Shown piece after piece: positions 17,029 through 21,480 of a stretch of DNA of 64,000 nt (its first letter is position 1; each line of letters opens with the position of its first letter). The notes below the pieces were generated by a model. The model saw only the letters and a list, made by a program, of their open reading frames with translations. It was not told the origin of the DNA and did no database searches. The DNA is from Bacteroides rodentium JCM 16496 (GTDB taxonomy: Bacteria; Bacteroidota; Bacteroidia; Bacteroidales; Bacteroidaceae). The stretch lies in assembly GCF_000614125.1 (NCBI RefSeq), contig NZ_BAKJ01000017.1, positions 1-64,000 of the forward strand, read 5' to 3'. The position numbers and the translations under genes are program-made.

Positions 17029-17691
17029 CTACCGTTTTTCCAAAACTGTTATCGAGTCTCCATACGCCTTCAATACTTCCAGCGTACGGGCACGGCGCTT
17101 GCGACCTTTGATATTCCAAAACTCACGGGTAAAAGGCATCATCAGGTCTAAACCGGAAATTCCGCCTCCACCGGCACCTTGCCAACCACCCACAGCCATA
17201 TTATTGGCCCGCTCCGTCACCCGGTAACGCAGACCGGTTGCTTCAATCTGCTCCACCGTCTCACGCAGACCGGCATCAAACGGATGTTTAGCCCAGTTCG
17301 TGGGAAGCTTCAGAATCTTAAGCGCATAGAATTCGTCTCCCCGCCAAGTATCCTTGTCTACCTTGATTTTTTTCTGATAAATGGGGTCCCAATTATATTT
17401 GGTATTGGCCGTATAGGGACGCAGGGTAAGCACCACTTTTTTCTCGGGCGCTTTCGGCATGACGGGCAATGAACTATCAAAATCCATCCACGACTTGTCC
17501 ATCGCCGCTTTTGGAGTGCCCAGTGAATTGTTCATTTCCAATTCCTGCAATACCTCCGGATTCAGCCTTACCTCCCCCTCGCCCTTCAGCAACCGGTTCA
17601 GCCTCAACGAGTCCTGAGGAGTCCAGTTTTGGGCATAGCAAGGGAAGGCTACTGCACAGAGCAACCCCCAAACAAGTATAGATATCTTCAC
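17029..17691 (-). CDS. Exported protein of unknown function (DUF4858-like)
   Basis: A 220-residue protein with a signal peptide (about 1-20, ending CYAQ). It has a Leu-rich region (DSLRLNRLLKGEGEVRLNPE), conserved Trp/Tyr positions and a Gly-rich stretch (GGWQGAGGGGISGLDLMMPF), ending RARTLEVLKAYGDSITVLEK. I assign DUF4858 only tentatively. It is the last gene of a likely four-gene unit with an ECF sigma factor, an anti-sigma/barrel hybrid and a lipoprotein, so it may be part of an envelope-stress response. Confidence 0.6.
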   Translation of the reverse strand: MKISILVWGLLCAVAFPCYAQNWTPQDSLRLNRLLKGEGEVRLNPEVLQELEMNNSLGTPKAAMDKSWMDFDSSLPVMPKAPEKKVVLTLRPYTANTKYNWDPIYQKKIKVDKDTWRGDEFYALKILKLPTNWAKHPFDAGLRETVEQIEATGLRYRVTERANNMAVGGWQGAGGGGISGLDLMMPFTREFWNIKGRKRRARTLEVLKAYGDSITVLEKR

Positions 17692-17740
17692 CTGACAGTT
17701 TTGATTACTTAATCCCTAATCCTTAATCCCTAAAAACATT

Positions 17741-18298
17741 TCACCACCACATATATCCGCTGCCACAAAGCGGTTCGTCATAGCAGGGGTCAATCGTCCA
17801 CATGGTCCGTGGATACTTACGGGTTTCCCACCAGCGTCGGTAGCGCGAGGCGGCATCCAGCACCTCTTCGTCCGAAAGGAAATAGATACCTTCATAATTC
17901 TCCGCATCCGTATGCACCATCTTGCATCCCATCGAAGCATTGTTCCCGAGGCGGATAGTCTCTACCGTCCACAAGATGCATTCGCCCAAACGCAGCTTGC
18001 CACCTGCCGAATAGGATACCGGAGCCAGGGGGAAAGAGGGAATGACCGTCAAGTCCTCGGCATACTTCAGCAATTCCTCTATATCTTCGGAAGTGAACTT
18101 GGGCATGTTACTCAATCCATCCGGACTTTGGGTAGAATATTTGCCAGCCTTCAACTGCTTGACAAACAAGTCTACATCCGGATGGTTGTAGTCCAACGTT
18201 TCTTTGCTGCAAGAGCCCAAAGAGAGAACAGAAAGAGTAAAGAATACGAGCAGCATAGTCTGCCCGAATATATGTAATTTATTGTATAGAGTCTTCAT
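17741..18298 (-). CDS. Lipoprotein of unknown function (DUF4943-like)
   Basis: A 185-residue protein with a hydrophobic N-terminus and a lipobox SLGSC (Cys30), then SKETLDYNHPDVDLFVKQLK, characteristic of DUF4943 lipoproteins in Bacteroides. A tryptophan-rich C-terminus (RRWWETRKYP, GYMWW) is notable. It follows the anti-sigma/barrel gene by 19 bp and precedes the DUF4858-like gene by 49 bp in the same direction. Its role is unknown. Co-transcription with an ECF sigma factor suggests that it senses or responds to envelope conditions. Confidence 0.65.
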   Translation of the reverse strand: MKTLYNKLHIFGQTMLLVFFTLSVLSLGSCSKETLDYNHPDVDLFVKQLKAGKYSTQSPDGLSNMPKFTSEDIEELLKYAEDLTVIPSFPLAPVSYSAGGKLRLGECILWTVETIRLGNNASMGCKMVHTDAENYEGIYFLSDEEVLDAASRYRRWWETRKYPRTMWTIDPCYDEPLCGSGYMWW

Positions 18299-18317
18299 AT
18301 TTGTATGGTATTTAAGA

Positions 18318-19418
18318 TTAATAAGTCATGCGCACGCCGCACAACAGATTCAGATTGGTGGGCCGTTCCGTACGCAAGGTTCTCGTCTGCGAGTCCGTAT
18401 CGAAATGATGGGACACGGACGGCTCTGCAAACAAGGCAAAACGGTCGTTCATTTTATAGCGTACCCCTACTCCGGCAGCAACCGACAACTGTACCGGCTC
18501 TGCGCCGAATCCATTGTCCGGAGCACCTGCAATGCATTTTTCGGCTGTTCCACCTACCATAGCATAGAAATCCACTTTCGGCGTACTGGCCAGCATCATG
18601 TTCAGCCTTACCGGAACTCCCAGCGTATGCAACGTATGGTCACCATCCAAGCAATTATACTGAAGACCGGCTTCCAAGGAGAAATGCTTATCTAAACGAC
18701 GTTCCACACTTACCCCGGCTGTGAACGGCATATGGAAATTCCCTTTCGGGAGGGAAGTGCCGATGCCTGCTTTCAATGCCCAATTACGGGGCTTGGACGG
18801 CGATACAGCCACAGACTTTGCCGGTTCTTCCTCAGAAGATGACGGCACTCTGTCTATATCAGCATCCTTATGGCCGGAATTTGAATGGTAGTTACCGTTT
18901 CCGGCCGGAGTTCCGTTACTGTAATAACCGTTTCCCGGCTGCGGCTGGTTTCCGTACACCCGTTGGGTAATCCGGATGGAAACATGGACGGACACGGATT
19001 CATCCTCATCGGCCTGCGCCGTCAATCCTGCCGGAATGCCGTTGGCGGGATGCTGTGTACCGGGTTTTTGTGCCACGGGGTTGGCCTGATGGATAGAGGG
19101 AAAACTTTCCTGCACCACATCCCCGTTCAAGTTGCCTTCCGGTGTCATGACTGCCACTTGTGTAAAGGCCTCCTTGATTTCCTCTTTCGGAGAGAAATAC
19201 CAGAAAGCGGCAGAAGCAGCTCCCAGTACAAATACAACAGAGGCGGCTGCGGCTACGCGGTGAAACCTCGGAGAAAGAAGAAGCTGCCTCCTGCCTTTTA
19301 CGGCAACCGGTGACGGCAAGTCACGTTGCAACCCTTCCCAGAAGTCCTCCCGCACTGTCATCTCTGCGCCGGCAAGACGACTGCGGAACAAACCGGTTAT
19401 TTCATCATTTTCTCTCAT
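18318..19418 (-). CDS. Anti-sigma-like membrane protein with C-terminal outer-membrane-type beta-barrel domain
   Basis: A 366-residue hybrid. Residues 1 to about 50 are a charged cytoplasmic region resembling anti-sigma domains (ITGLFRSRLAGAEMTVREDF). A single membrane segment follows (about 54-73, VAAAASVVFVLGAASAAFWYF), then a low-complexity Pro/Asn/Gly/Ser linker to about 205. The C-terminal part is an eight-strand-type porin-family sequence (WALKAGIGTSLPKGNF to NLNLLCGVRMTY). The start codon overlaps the sigma-factor gene by 14 bp, indicating translational coupling. How one polypeptide could span both membranes is unclear, so the barrel may sit in the periplasm or span the outer membrane. 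Confidence 0.75.
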   Translation of the reverse strand: MRENDEITGLFRSRLAGAEMTVREDFWEGLQRDLPSPVAVKGRRQLLLSPRFHRVAAAASVVFVLGAASAAFWYFSPKEEIKEAFTQVAVMTPEGNLNGDVVQESFPSIHQANPVAQKPGTQHPANGIPAGLTAQADEDESVSVHVSIRITQRVYGNQPQPGNGYYSNGTPAGNGNYHSNSGHKDADIDRVPSSSEEEPAKSVAVSPSKPRNWALKAGIGTSLPKGNFHMPFTAGVSVERRLDKHFSLEAGLQYNCLDGDHTLHTLGVPVRLNMMLASTPKVDFYAMVGGTAEKCIAGAPDNGFGAEPVQLSVAAGVGVRYKMNDRFALFAEPSVSHHFDTDSQTRTLRTERPTNLNLLCGVRMTY

Positions 19419-20013
19419 ATTCAGTATATTCTTTAATTCTTTTTATCAACAAACACTTGGCACGATGCAACTGCGAGGTAGACGAATGCTCTTTGATGTG
19501 GAGGATTTCGGCTATTTCCTTGTGCGATTTCTCCTCAAAGACGTATAAGTTGAATACAGTACGGCATCCATCGGGAAGTTCCGCCACGAACGCCATCAGC
19601 ATTTCTTCGGAAATGCGGCCTCCGGTTTCGGCAATGCCCGCTTCATCCGGAATGTCGGGCAATTGTTCCTCATTCACCACCAGTTGGCTGAAGCGTTGCT
19701 GCCTCCGCAGGTAGTCTATCGCCTGCGTCACCATTACCCTTGTCACCCAGGTACTCAATGCACATTCGCCACGGAAGGTGAAGTGGGTGAAAATTTTGAT
19801 GAAGCCATCGTGCAATACGTCATGGGCCGCATCGACATCGCCCGTATAGCGGTAACATACCGCCAGCATCTGCTTGGAGTAGAGGGTGTATAATTCCTTT
19901 CGGGCGGAATCCTTTCCTGCCCGGCAGCCCTCAATCAGTTCTATCTCATTTTCCAATGTCAGTGCTCGTTTTACGGACGCCTCTTCGCGTCGTTTGTTAG
20001 TTAGACGCAGCAT
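19405..20013 (-). CDS. ECF-family RNA polymerase sigma factor
   Basis: A 202-residue protein with sigma region 2 (ARKELYTLYSKQMLAVCYRYTGDVDAAHDVLHDGFIKIF, in pieces) and region 4 (LPDGCRTVFNLYVFEEKSHKEIAEIL). The 'H-D-V-L-H-D-G-F' segment is the core-binding motif of Bacteroides ECF factors. It heads a unit with the anti-sigma/barrel gene, a DUF4943-like lipoprotein and a DUF4858-like protein. The regulon cannot be inferred here. A direct effect on its own operon is likely by family habit. Confidence 0.88.
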   Translation of the reverse strand: MLRLTNKRREEASVKRALTLENEIELIEGCRAGKDSARKELYTLYSKQMLAVCYRYTGDVDAAHDVLHDGFIKIFTHFTFRGECALSTWVTRVMVTQAIDYLRRQQRFSQLVVNEEQLPDIPDEAGIAETGGRISEEMLMAFVAELPDGCRTVFNLYVFEEKSHKEIAEILHIKEHSSTSQLHRAKCLLIKRIKEYTEYERK

Positions 20014-20063: not shown

Positions 20064-20768
20064 TTATTTATATTTGGCCCTCAGAACCTGTATTTGCTTG
20101 TCCAGTATCTCATTCAAAGAAATAAATTCTCTCCAAACGAAGAAATTGGGAGTCAAATCCACAAAATTGATAAATTTATCATTTTCCAAAAGATGATAAA
20201 TGCTGCCACTATTGCCGGCCAAAACTTCTTCCCTGCTCTGCAACATATTAACAGATACAAGTACACTCTTTTTCAAACTATAATAGTCGTTGACCGATTT
20301 CTGTACGCCTCCCAGCTGATAATAAGCCTGCAATATATCCTGTAGCAAGCGCTTGTCCGGAATATACTGCATCATGGAAGAACCTTTCAGAACATCCAAC
20401 GCATCGGTACGATAAGAGAAGTCATATAAATTACCGAATAATCCCTGATACTTATCCAAAGTATCCTGGGGAATTTCTGCTACGGACATTTTATGTTCTT
20501 TCAACAGCAAACTCATGTGCATATCCTGCTTCAACAAGTACTCTGTCTCGAGCAACTCCCCCTTGTTATACTCCAACTCATCCGCCACCAACTGCATCGT
20601 AGCACGTACCTCCTTCTGGCGGGCATTCTCAGTAATCCGGTCACTTCCCCAGAAAGTAACAATGATACCCGCAGCCACAATGCTGAACTGACGGAAATAA
20701 TCACCCAGCTTCCAGCCTTTAATGGTAGTTTTTATTTTACCCAAACTGATTTTAGTTACCATAATCAT
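20064..20768 (-). CDS. Membrane-anchored protein, tandem paralogue B
   Basis: A 234-residue protein. Residues about 14-40 (TIKGWKLGDYFRQFSIVAAG) lead into one membrane segment (SIVAAGIIVTFWGSDRI) followed by a helical, probably coiled-coil region (VRATMQLVADELEYNKGELL). The downstream gene's product has the same design and about one-third to one-half identity by eye over the N-terminal half. I do not recognise the family. The GSD/GSE motif after the membrane segment is conserved in both. It is separated from the paralogue by 1 bp, so the two are certainly co-transcribed. Confidence 0.65.
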   Translation of the reverse strand: MIMVTKISLGKIKTTIKGWKLGDYFRQFSIVAAGIIVTFWGSDRITENARQKEVRATMQLVADELEYNKGELLETEYLLKQDMHMSLLLKEHKMSVAEIPQDTLDKYQGLFGNLYDFSYRTDALDVLKGSSMMQYIPDKRLLQDILQAYYQLGGVQKSVNDYYSLKKSVLVSVNMLQSREEVLAGNSGSIYHLLENDKFINFVDLTPNFFVWREFISLNEILDKQIQVLRAKYK

Positions 20769-20769
20769 T

Positions 20770-21480
20770 TTACTTTAAATCATATCTTTCTTCAAGCATT
20801 TGTATTGCCTCGTCTATGCGTTTTCCCACACGTTCTACATAGTCTGGTGTGAAATAGTTTTTCGCTACCCTGACAAAGTTCCGTACCGACCTATCCGACA
20901 AGTAGATATCCCACGCCTCATATCCTCCACGATTTAACTGGTCCGTCTGTTCGTCAGTCAATGCCAAATGAAAAGGAAGTATAATTTCGTCCTTCATATC
21001 GTAATAGCCATTCATAGTCGCCTTGAATCCATCCAATACTTCATAGATTCCAGTCAACTGCAACAGTAATTCTTTATCCGAAATCTTCTGCATCAACATG
21101 GAGCTTTTAAGTATATCCAACGCATTCTGACTATAATAAAAATTACGGATATGCCCCATAAGAAAGCGGAACTGTATCAATGAATCTTCCGGTATCGTCC
21201 GATACTTCAAGTCATGCTCCACCAATAAGCTGGAAAGGTGTTCATCCTCTCTGAACTCTGAAACGATACTCTCATAATTCTCCCGATTGCTTTTCAGTTC
21301 ATCCCTGATTAGCGACATGGTGGCCCGAATATCTTTCCCCTCGGAGTTTTGAGTAACCAACTCACTGCCGGCAAATGTTATCACTACACCAATCACCACA
21401 ATGGAAGTCTGCCGGATGTAGTCTCCCACTTGCCAACCTTTGACAGTTGTTTTTACTTTATTCCATGGTATGTTTTTCAT
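20770..21480 (-). CDS. Membrane-anchored protein, tandem paralogue A
   Basis: A 236-residue protein, first of a tandem pair. KTTVKGWQVGDYIRQTSIVVIG and one membrane segment (SIVVIGVVITFAGSELV) precede a helical domain (IRATMSLIRDELKSNRENYE). The layout and the motifs KTT.KGW..GDY.RQ.SIV and RATM.L..DEL are shared with the second gene. Both are predicted inner-membrane proteins with the large domain on one side. No function can be assigned. The duplication and strict pairing imply a hetero-oligomer or a recent duplication. Confidence 0.65.
   Translation of the reverse strand: MKNIPWNKVKTTVKGWQVGDYIRQTSIVVIGVVITFAGSELVTQNSEGKDIRATMSLIRDELKSNRENYESIVSEFREDEHLSSLLVEHDLKYRTIPEDSLIQFRFLMGHIRNFYYSQNALDILKSSMLMQKISDKELLLQLTGIYEVLDGFKATMNGYYDMKDEIILPFHLALTDEQTDQLNRGGYEAWDIYLSDRSVRNFVRVAKNYFTPDYVERVGKRIDEAIQMLEERYDLK

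Follow-up and report, generated by a model that had tools for sequence, protein, structure and literature searches.

In gut Bacteroides, the passage of a signal across two membranes in a single chain and the setting of vesicle output are both of interest. In the passages of PMC13088901 that we searched, proteins of the Dma family are described as single chains joining the outer membrane (OM) to a cytoplasmic extracytoplasmic function (ECF) sigma factor. In B. thetaiotaomicron, Dma2 (BT_1558) consists of an anti-sigma domain, a helix, a disordered tether and a barrel, and its gene stands with das2 (BT_1559), BT_1557 (DUF4943), BT_1556 (DUF4858) and BT_1555, whose product structurally resembles enoyl-ACP reductases and nitronate monooxygenases (PMC13088901). 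The same passages report that deletion of dma2 raises das2, bt_1557, bt_1556 and bt_1555 (log2 fold 4.54, 6.00, 5.78 and 2.48, respectively) and not nigD1, and that loss of dma2 leads to more vesicles, an effect that depends on das2 and for which the genes downstream of dma2 are dispensable (PMC13088901). Here we compare with this operon a locus of Bacteroides rodentium JCM 16496, found in a stretch of 64,000 nucleotides (contig NZ_BAKJ01000017.1, positions 1 to 64,000; hereafter the window), in which a gene for an ECF sigma factor overlaps one for a 366-residue Dma2-like protein.

Several other systems are related to this one. The founding study on Dma1/Das1 (PNAS 2024; doi 10.1073/pnas.2321910121), as relayed by the papers that cite it, reportedly described a head, a helix, a tether, a barrel and an adjacent sigma gene. 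The B. rodentium genome also contains a Dma1-like paralogue (G000:C140), the names Dma1-like and Dma3-like being labels that we give according to frame length and sigma position. Dma1 resembles Dma2 in its head, its helix, a tether of similar length, its barrel and the adjacent sigma gene, but the tethers of Dma1-like proteins and of Dma2 give no alignment, and no CGTCTAA motif precedes the das1-like gene. The Dma3 type (16 proteins, chosen from long frames) shares the barrel and the tether, whereas its sigma domain is fused at the N-terminus into one chain, where the window has two genes. Intact Dma3-like fusions of ~500-585 residues occur in other genomes, and one Dma3-like gene of the B. 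rodentium genome (L092, G000:C136:28500-32500) is split into a 294-residue frame holding the sigma domain and helix and a 282-residue frame holding the barrel.

In FecR/FecI-type systems, an OM signal likewise reaches an ECF sigma factor, though through a receptor and a regulator that are separate proteins, that is, two proteins where the present system has one chain. The FecR model of Pfam gave no match at E<=0.1, and a FecR-type regulator was rejected for this reason. Concerning the sigma factors themselves, those adjacent to genes of the Dma family are described as members of ECF21, and domain models identify the present one as an ECF sigma factor.

The locus and the published dma2 operon

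All coordinates given for the window refer to features on the minus strand. The das2-like sigma gene as called spans 20013-19405 (Pfam Sigma70_r2, 7.8e-13; Sigma70_r4_2, 6e-13) and, in the ORF calls, overlaps by 14 bases the dma2-like ORF at 19418-18318, whose architecture and orthologues point to a dual-membrane anti-sigma protein of 366 aa. These are followed by genes for a DUF4943 lipoprotein (18298-17741; PF16301, 3.5e-72), with a lipobox read by eye whose cysteine, C30, is invariant in 26 sequences, and for a DUF4858 exported protein (17691-17029; PF16150, 1.8e-94), with a signal peptide also read by eye. A preliminary description made from the sequence had listed these four ORFs (20013-17029) with the coordinates and domain names that we recover. 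A nitronate-monooxygenase-like gene comes next.

The five kinds of genes stand in an order identical to that of BT_1559-BT_1555 as published, the anti-sigma protein has the same four-part architecture, and the sigma gene is adjacent to it. Gene content and order thus identify the locus as the orthologous dma2 operon, the differences being that it belongs to another species and that the monooxygenase-like gene lies in two frames in the window. The operon type is already known from B. thetaiotaomicron, and the preliminary description was mistaken in calling it uncharacterised (PMC13088901). What the present analysis adds is a probable promoter, likely extra targets, a tether of conserved length and an amphipathic tether strand. 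In the open-licence text searched (passages of PMC13088901, PMC12596196, PMC7406223 and PMC13114119), we found no description of the site, of the extra targets or of the length and the strand of the tether, the founding Dma1 paper and the supplements lying outside this search.

A single scan of species genomes yielded 26 named loci. Dma2 identity is highest in B. muris, at 92%, and falls to 35% in Bacteroides sp. 51 and in a Mediterranea metagenome-assembled genome (MAG), with one Prevotellaceae MAG at 46%. The locus of B. faecis (L061), which we take to be a near relative of B. thetaiotaomicron, encodes a Dma2 that is 47% identical and keeps the complete five-gene order. The sigma, Dma2-like and DUF4943 genes keep their order and strand in all 26 loci, and DUF4858 comes next in 24, L055 ending there and L059 having none in the following 1,320 bases. 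A chance fusion or annotation artefact was rejected, as the fusion is kept in 26/26 loci. The monooxygenase is present in 17 of the 26 and is not always a neighbour, since in five of the nine loci without it (L056, L063, L065, L067 and L068) the sequence continues for over 3.7 kb.

Among 151 genomes of the family, 11 contain a full-length match to the Dma2-like protein (from query residue 1-2 to 365-366), namely ten of the genus, B. rodentium itself included, and G003; DUF4943 was found in 14 and DUF4858 in 12. In three genomes of genus g9 (L093-L095), DUF4943 and then the monooxygenase lie beside a gene that we take to be nadC-like, and no das2, dma2 or DUF4858 was found within the 8.5 kb read. 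DUF4943 therefore has an existence independent of das2/dma2, and the sigma pair was either lost in g9 or inserted elsewhere.

We consider it probable, as the best explanation overall, that the locus is a dma2 operon working by a relay across the envelope and by autoinduction. The Das2-like sigma factor would be held in the cytoplasm by the head of the Dma2-like protein; one helix would anchor the chain in the inner membrane and an eight-strand barrel would anchor it in the OM, with a tether of ~130 residues in between. A change at the OM, be it a ligand of the barrel, a failed insertion of the barrel or an altered spacing of the envelope, would release the sigma factor, which would then read the site GCAGCATT-N12-GCGTCTAA before its own gene and jointly raise the sigma factor, the anti-sigma protein, DUF4943 and DUF4858. 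The sigma factor may also read one extra gene for an exported protein in some other Bacteroides. The basis of this explanation is the gene order, the architecture, the predicted topology, the conserved site and the tether length seen in the sequence, together with the genetics published for B. thetaiotaomicron, and we infer the signal and the step of release.

Architecture and tether of the Dma2-like protein

The cytoplasmic head (residues 1-50; 19418-19269) can be aligned to its Dma1-like counterparts (hhalign E 3.8e-9), and this similarity together with its position suggests a putative anti-sigma domain, predicted to contact the sigma factor. It is followed by a predicted inner-membrane helix (residues 51-74; 19268-19197), recognized by hydropathy and modelled as a helix by AlphaFold at low pLDDT; K/R residues are richer before than after it in 37/37 orthologues, as expected of an N-terminus lying inside. 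At the other end, residues 213-366 (18782-18321) form a predicted eight-strand barrel of OM type, on the evidence of AlphaFold, Foldseek and PF13505. The AlphaFold model, based on 27 sequences, places the eight strands at 213-364 with block mean pLDDT of 71-93, PF13505 matches at E<=0.001 in 27/27 aligned orthologues, and Foldseek gives OmpA, NspA and OmpW among the top barrels, those of OmpA/NspA/OmpX type at E 1e-3 or weaker. The barrel would be inserted in the OM. Mean conservation, computed from 37 orthologues (32 after removal of near-identical ones), is 0.65 for the head, 0.80 for the helix region, 0.47 for the tether and 0.70 for the barrel.

Adjoining the inner membrane on its outer side is a conserved segment (residues 73-85; 19202-19164) in which W73, F75, S76, P77, K78, E79, A84 and F85 are invariant in 27 sequences. 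As one of the most conserved parts of the protein, it could be a protease-recognition site, in a relay for which the RseA/sigma-E system is the model: the barrel would act as a sentinel of OM assembly, and if it failed to insert, proteases would cut the chain close to the inner membrane, with release of the sigma factor. The last residue is moreover aromatic in 37/37 Dma2 versus 12/20 Dma1-like proteins, as expected of substrates of the barrel assembly machinery (BAM). We regard such a relay as possible but somewhat unlikely, because the tether keeps its length and not its sequence, which a disposable linker would not need, and because proteolysis is not mentioned in the passages of PMC13088901 that were searched, where 'protease' appears in methods passages only. 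The earlier claim that the single chain works by avoiding proteolytic relays is for its part not supported.

The tether itself (residues 79-212, 134 residues; 19184-18783) shows low conservation and pLDDT under 50. Measured from the end of the helix to the first strand, its length is 109-174 residues in 37 Dma2, 112-168 in 20 Dma1-like and 104-126 in 16 Dma3-like proteins, giving for the 73 proteins of the three types a median of 130, an interquartile range of 121-138 and a range of 104-174, statistics that ignore kinship within types. The sequences do not follow: in the one comparison made, of Dma1-like with Dma2, the tethers gave no alignment (hhalign probability 0.05%, E 0.83), in contrast to the heads. 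The trans-envelope link by a single chain put forward in the preliminary description thus fits the K/R pattern, the barrel matches and the similar tether in 73 proteins, but it was already in print.

A mostly variable and disordered tether would also tolerate a cut, and the fusion might be processed in the periplasm after export into an inner-membrane anti-sigma part and a barrel, two proteins without a continuous bridge. We find this improbable, given that the fusion is kept in all 26 named loci and that the shortest tether, at 104 residues, suggests that reach matters. One part of the tether that could mark a place of processing, or else of docking, is a conserved amphipathic strand-like island at residues 141-153 (18998-18960). 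Its conservation of 0.69 was reached in 0/5000 column shuffles (mean best 0.52), and the segment is gapless, with positions 142, 144, 146, 148 and 150 hydrophobic in 97-100% of 32 sequences and the odd positions between them in 0-6%. AlphaFold leaves the island unplaced, and it is degraded in L012 and L013. A link between the island and DUF4858, considered from the degraded island of L012 and L013 and from the lack of a DUF4858 match in their genomes (G135 and G121), was dropped, since L059 keeps the island and has no DUF4858 in the next 1,320 bases.

Worm-like-chain arithmetic on assumed values (0.36 nm per residue, a persistence length of 0.5 nm and a gap of 20-30 nm) gives a tether of 130 residues an extension of 43-64% of the contour length and a pull of 8-19 pN, which is not evidence of tension. 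Altering the length of the tether could separate the sensing of spacing from that of a ligand in Dma proteins.

A candidate Das2 promoter and its other occurrences

Alignment of upstream DNA reveals a promoter-like site, GCAGCATT-N12-GCGTCTAA (20028-20001), which is a predicted target of the Das2-like sigma factor. It is exact in 24 of the 26 named loci, or 24 of the 25 that are testable, as L049 starts inside the gene; L059 has GCGTCTAA and not the first box. The spacing of the two boxes fits ECF promoters. Because the site covers the initial codons of the called sigma ORF, a transcript starting from it could not use that ATG; the real start probably lies downstream, likely at a TTG at 19956 that is conserved within a conserved TTGG, so that the likely das2-like coding sequence is 19956-19405. 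The leader of das2 3' of the site holds a hairpin, GACGC...GCGTC (19926-20000), that is also present in close relatives, while distant relatives are not uniform and fold differently.

With at most 1 mismatch allowed, a scan of 149 genomes of the genus found 126 sites, distributed over 102 genomes, versus 10 sites, counted by eye, for a reversed control pattern. Most of them (101/126) precede das2: 99 are located 5' of a dma2 match, at a distance of 578-1343 bp (median 586), and those of L152 and L155 were assigned by reading contigs that the automatic test had missed. We infer that the site is the Das2 promoter. As it is palindromic in many species (GCAGCAT...ATGCTGC), in the manner of repressor sites, it might instead be bound by a separate regulator. 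This we judge very improbable: the palindrome is lost in several loci (e.g. L061, L062 and L064) where both end boxes are kept, the three g9 loci that have DUF4943 without das2 show no site at up to 3 mismatches, and CGTCTAA is absent within 600 bases upstream of the das1-like gene, where only CGTCTA occurs ~380 bases off.

In the B. rodentium genome, which is 86% complete, there is one site at 0 mismatches and none at 1-2, and the sites at 3 mismatches number 21 versus 39 for the reversed control pattern. A large Das2 regulon in this genome was rejected on these counts. Elsewhere in the genus, the 25 sites that do not precede das2 were all read, and 23 lie before ORFs for exported proteins; counted from the first base of the site, the distance to the first ATG is 48-68 bases in 21 of them, 27 in L138 and 99 in L146. 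The other two (L151 and L153) apparently fall within a coding gene and resemble chance occurrences. Export signals were recognized by eye, and one member of each kind was searched in Pfam. Eight of the 23 precede a TonB-receptor-like protein of 852-854 residues (PF14905, 3e-87), four a protein of 241 residues without Pfam match, and four a lipoprotein of 304-315 residues, also without Pfam match. Another five precede a 213-residue protein, whose frame is disturbed in L146; its beginning is similar to DUF4858, with a blastp value of 1.5e-8 in a nine-member set and a Pfam value of 0.0089 that does not reach the cut-off. The remaining two precede a protein of 203/209 residues (DUF481, 3.9e-6) that is similar at its end to the end of the 213-residue protein. 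In the B. rodentium genome, the 213-residue protein has no counterpart except the DUF4858 gene itself.

These 23 sites likely mark extra Das2 target genes in some other Bacteroides. The 28-base site thereby offers a way to find direct targets of Das2, with five kinds of candidate target genes outside the operon, and the conserved tether strand is a specific element to mutate. In five genomes (L143-L147), the extra gene that bears a site lies ~18-20 kb downstream of das2 and faces it, near a phosphomannomutase-like gene; the equivalent position of the window has no such gene.

A bolder proposal, which we put forward tentatively and deem unlikely as a whole, is that Dma proteins are mechanical links set by their length, that the strand in the Dma2 tether docks on a periplasmic partner, and that Das2 has direct control of its own operon and, in some clades, of one separately recruited exported protein. 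If this were true, a tether anchored in both membranes would be extended to roughly half of its contour length, and a change in the gap or in the anchoring of the barrel, as in the formation of vesicles, could be felt as a pull on the helix. The effects on polysaccharide loci and on vesicles would then be indirect, direct control being limited to the operon and one exported protein.

Several observations weigh against the dma2-operon explanation as we have set it out. The identification with the operon of B. thetaiotaomicron goes by gene content and order. The head matches no anti-sigma model in Pfam or NCBIfam at E<=0.1, so that of the architecture given in the preliminary description the single helix, the linker of about 130 residues and the barrel were recovered, but not an anti-sigma model on the head. 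AlphaFold places nothing with confidence in residues 1-208. The PF13505 match of the B. rodentium barrel (E 1.9e-5, 25.3 bits) is below the Pfam cut-off of 28.7, and Foldseek found no PDB barrel at E<=0.001. As to the site, 132 genomes of the genus are among the Dma2-like matches listed, and in 33 of them none lies ahead of the match at <=1 mismatch, in some cases because the contig does not extend far enough; L097 lacks one even when 3 mismatches are allowed. Finally, the published effects of dma2 on polysaccharide loci are unexplained by the site in this genome, which has one convincing occurrence.

Neighbouring genes

For the DUF4943 lipoprotein, a structure model (pLDDT 80) found no match in a search of PDB structures, and by sequence no convincing relative of DUF4943 or of DUF4858 came out of PDB. 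The nitronate-monooxygenase-like gene (16984-16002) consists of two ORFs, the first part matching PF03060 at 7.1e-26. It is a single frame in relatives, with a one-frame match in B. muris (L043) and others, and its split is either a real loss or an assembly error.

On the other side of the operon, between das2 and a gene that we take to be nadC-like, the region 20064-21480 encodes two tandem proteins of 234 and 236 aa that are 36% identical and without Pfam match. Relatives of these proteins are present in 6/26 named loci (L043, L046, L048, L050, L053 and L063), which indicates a variable insertion.

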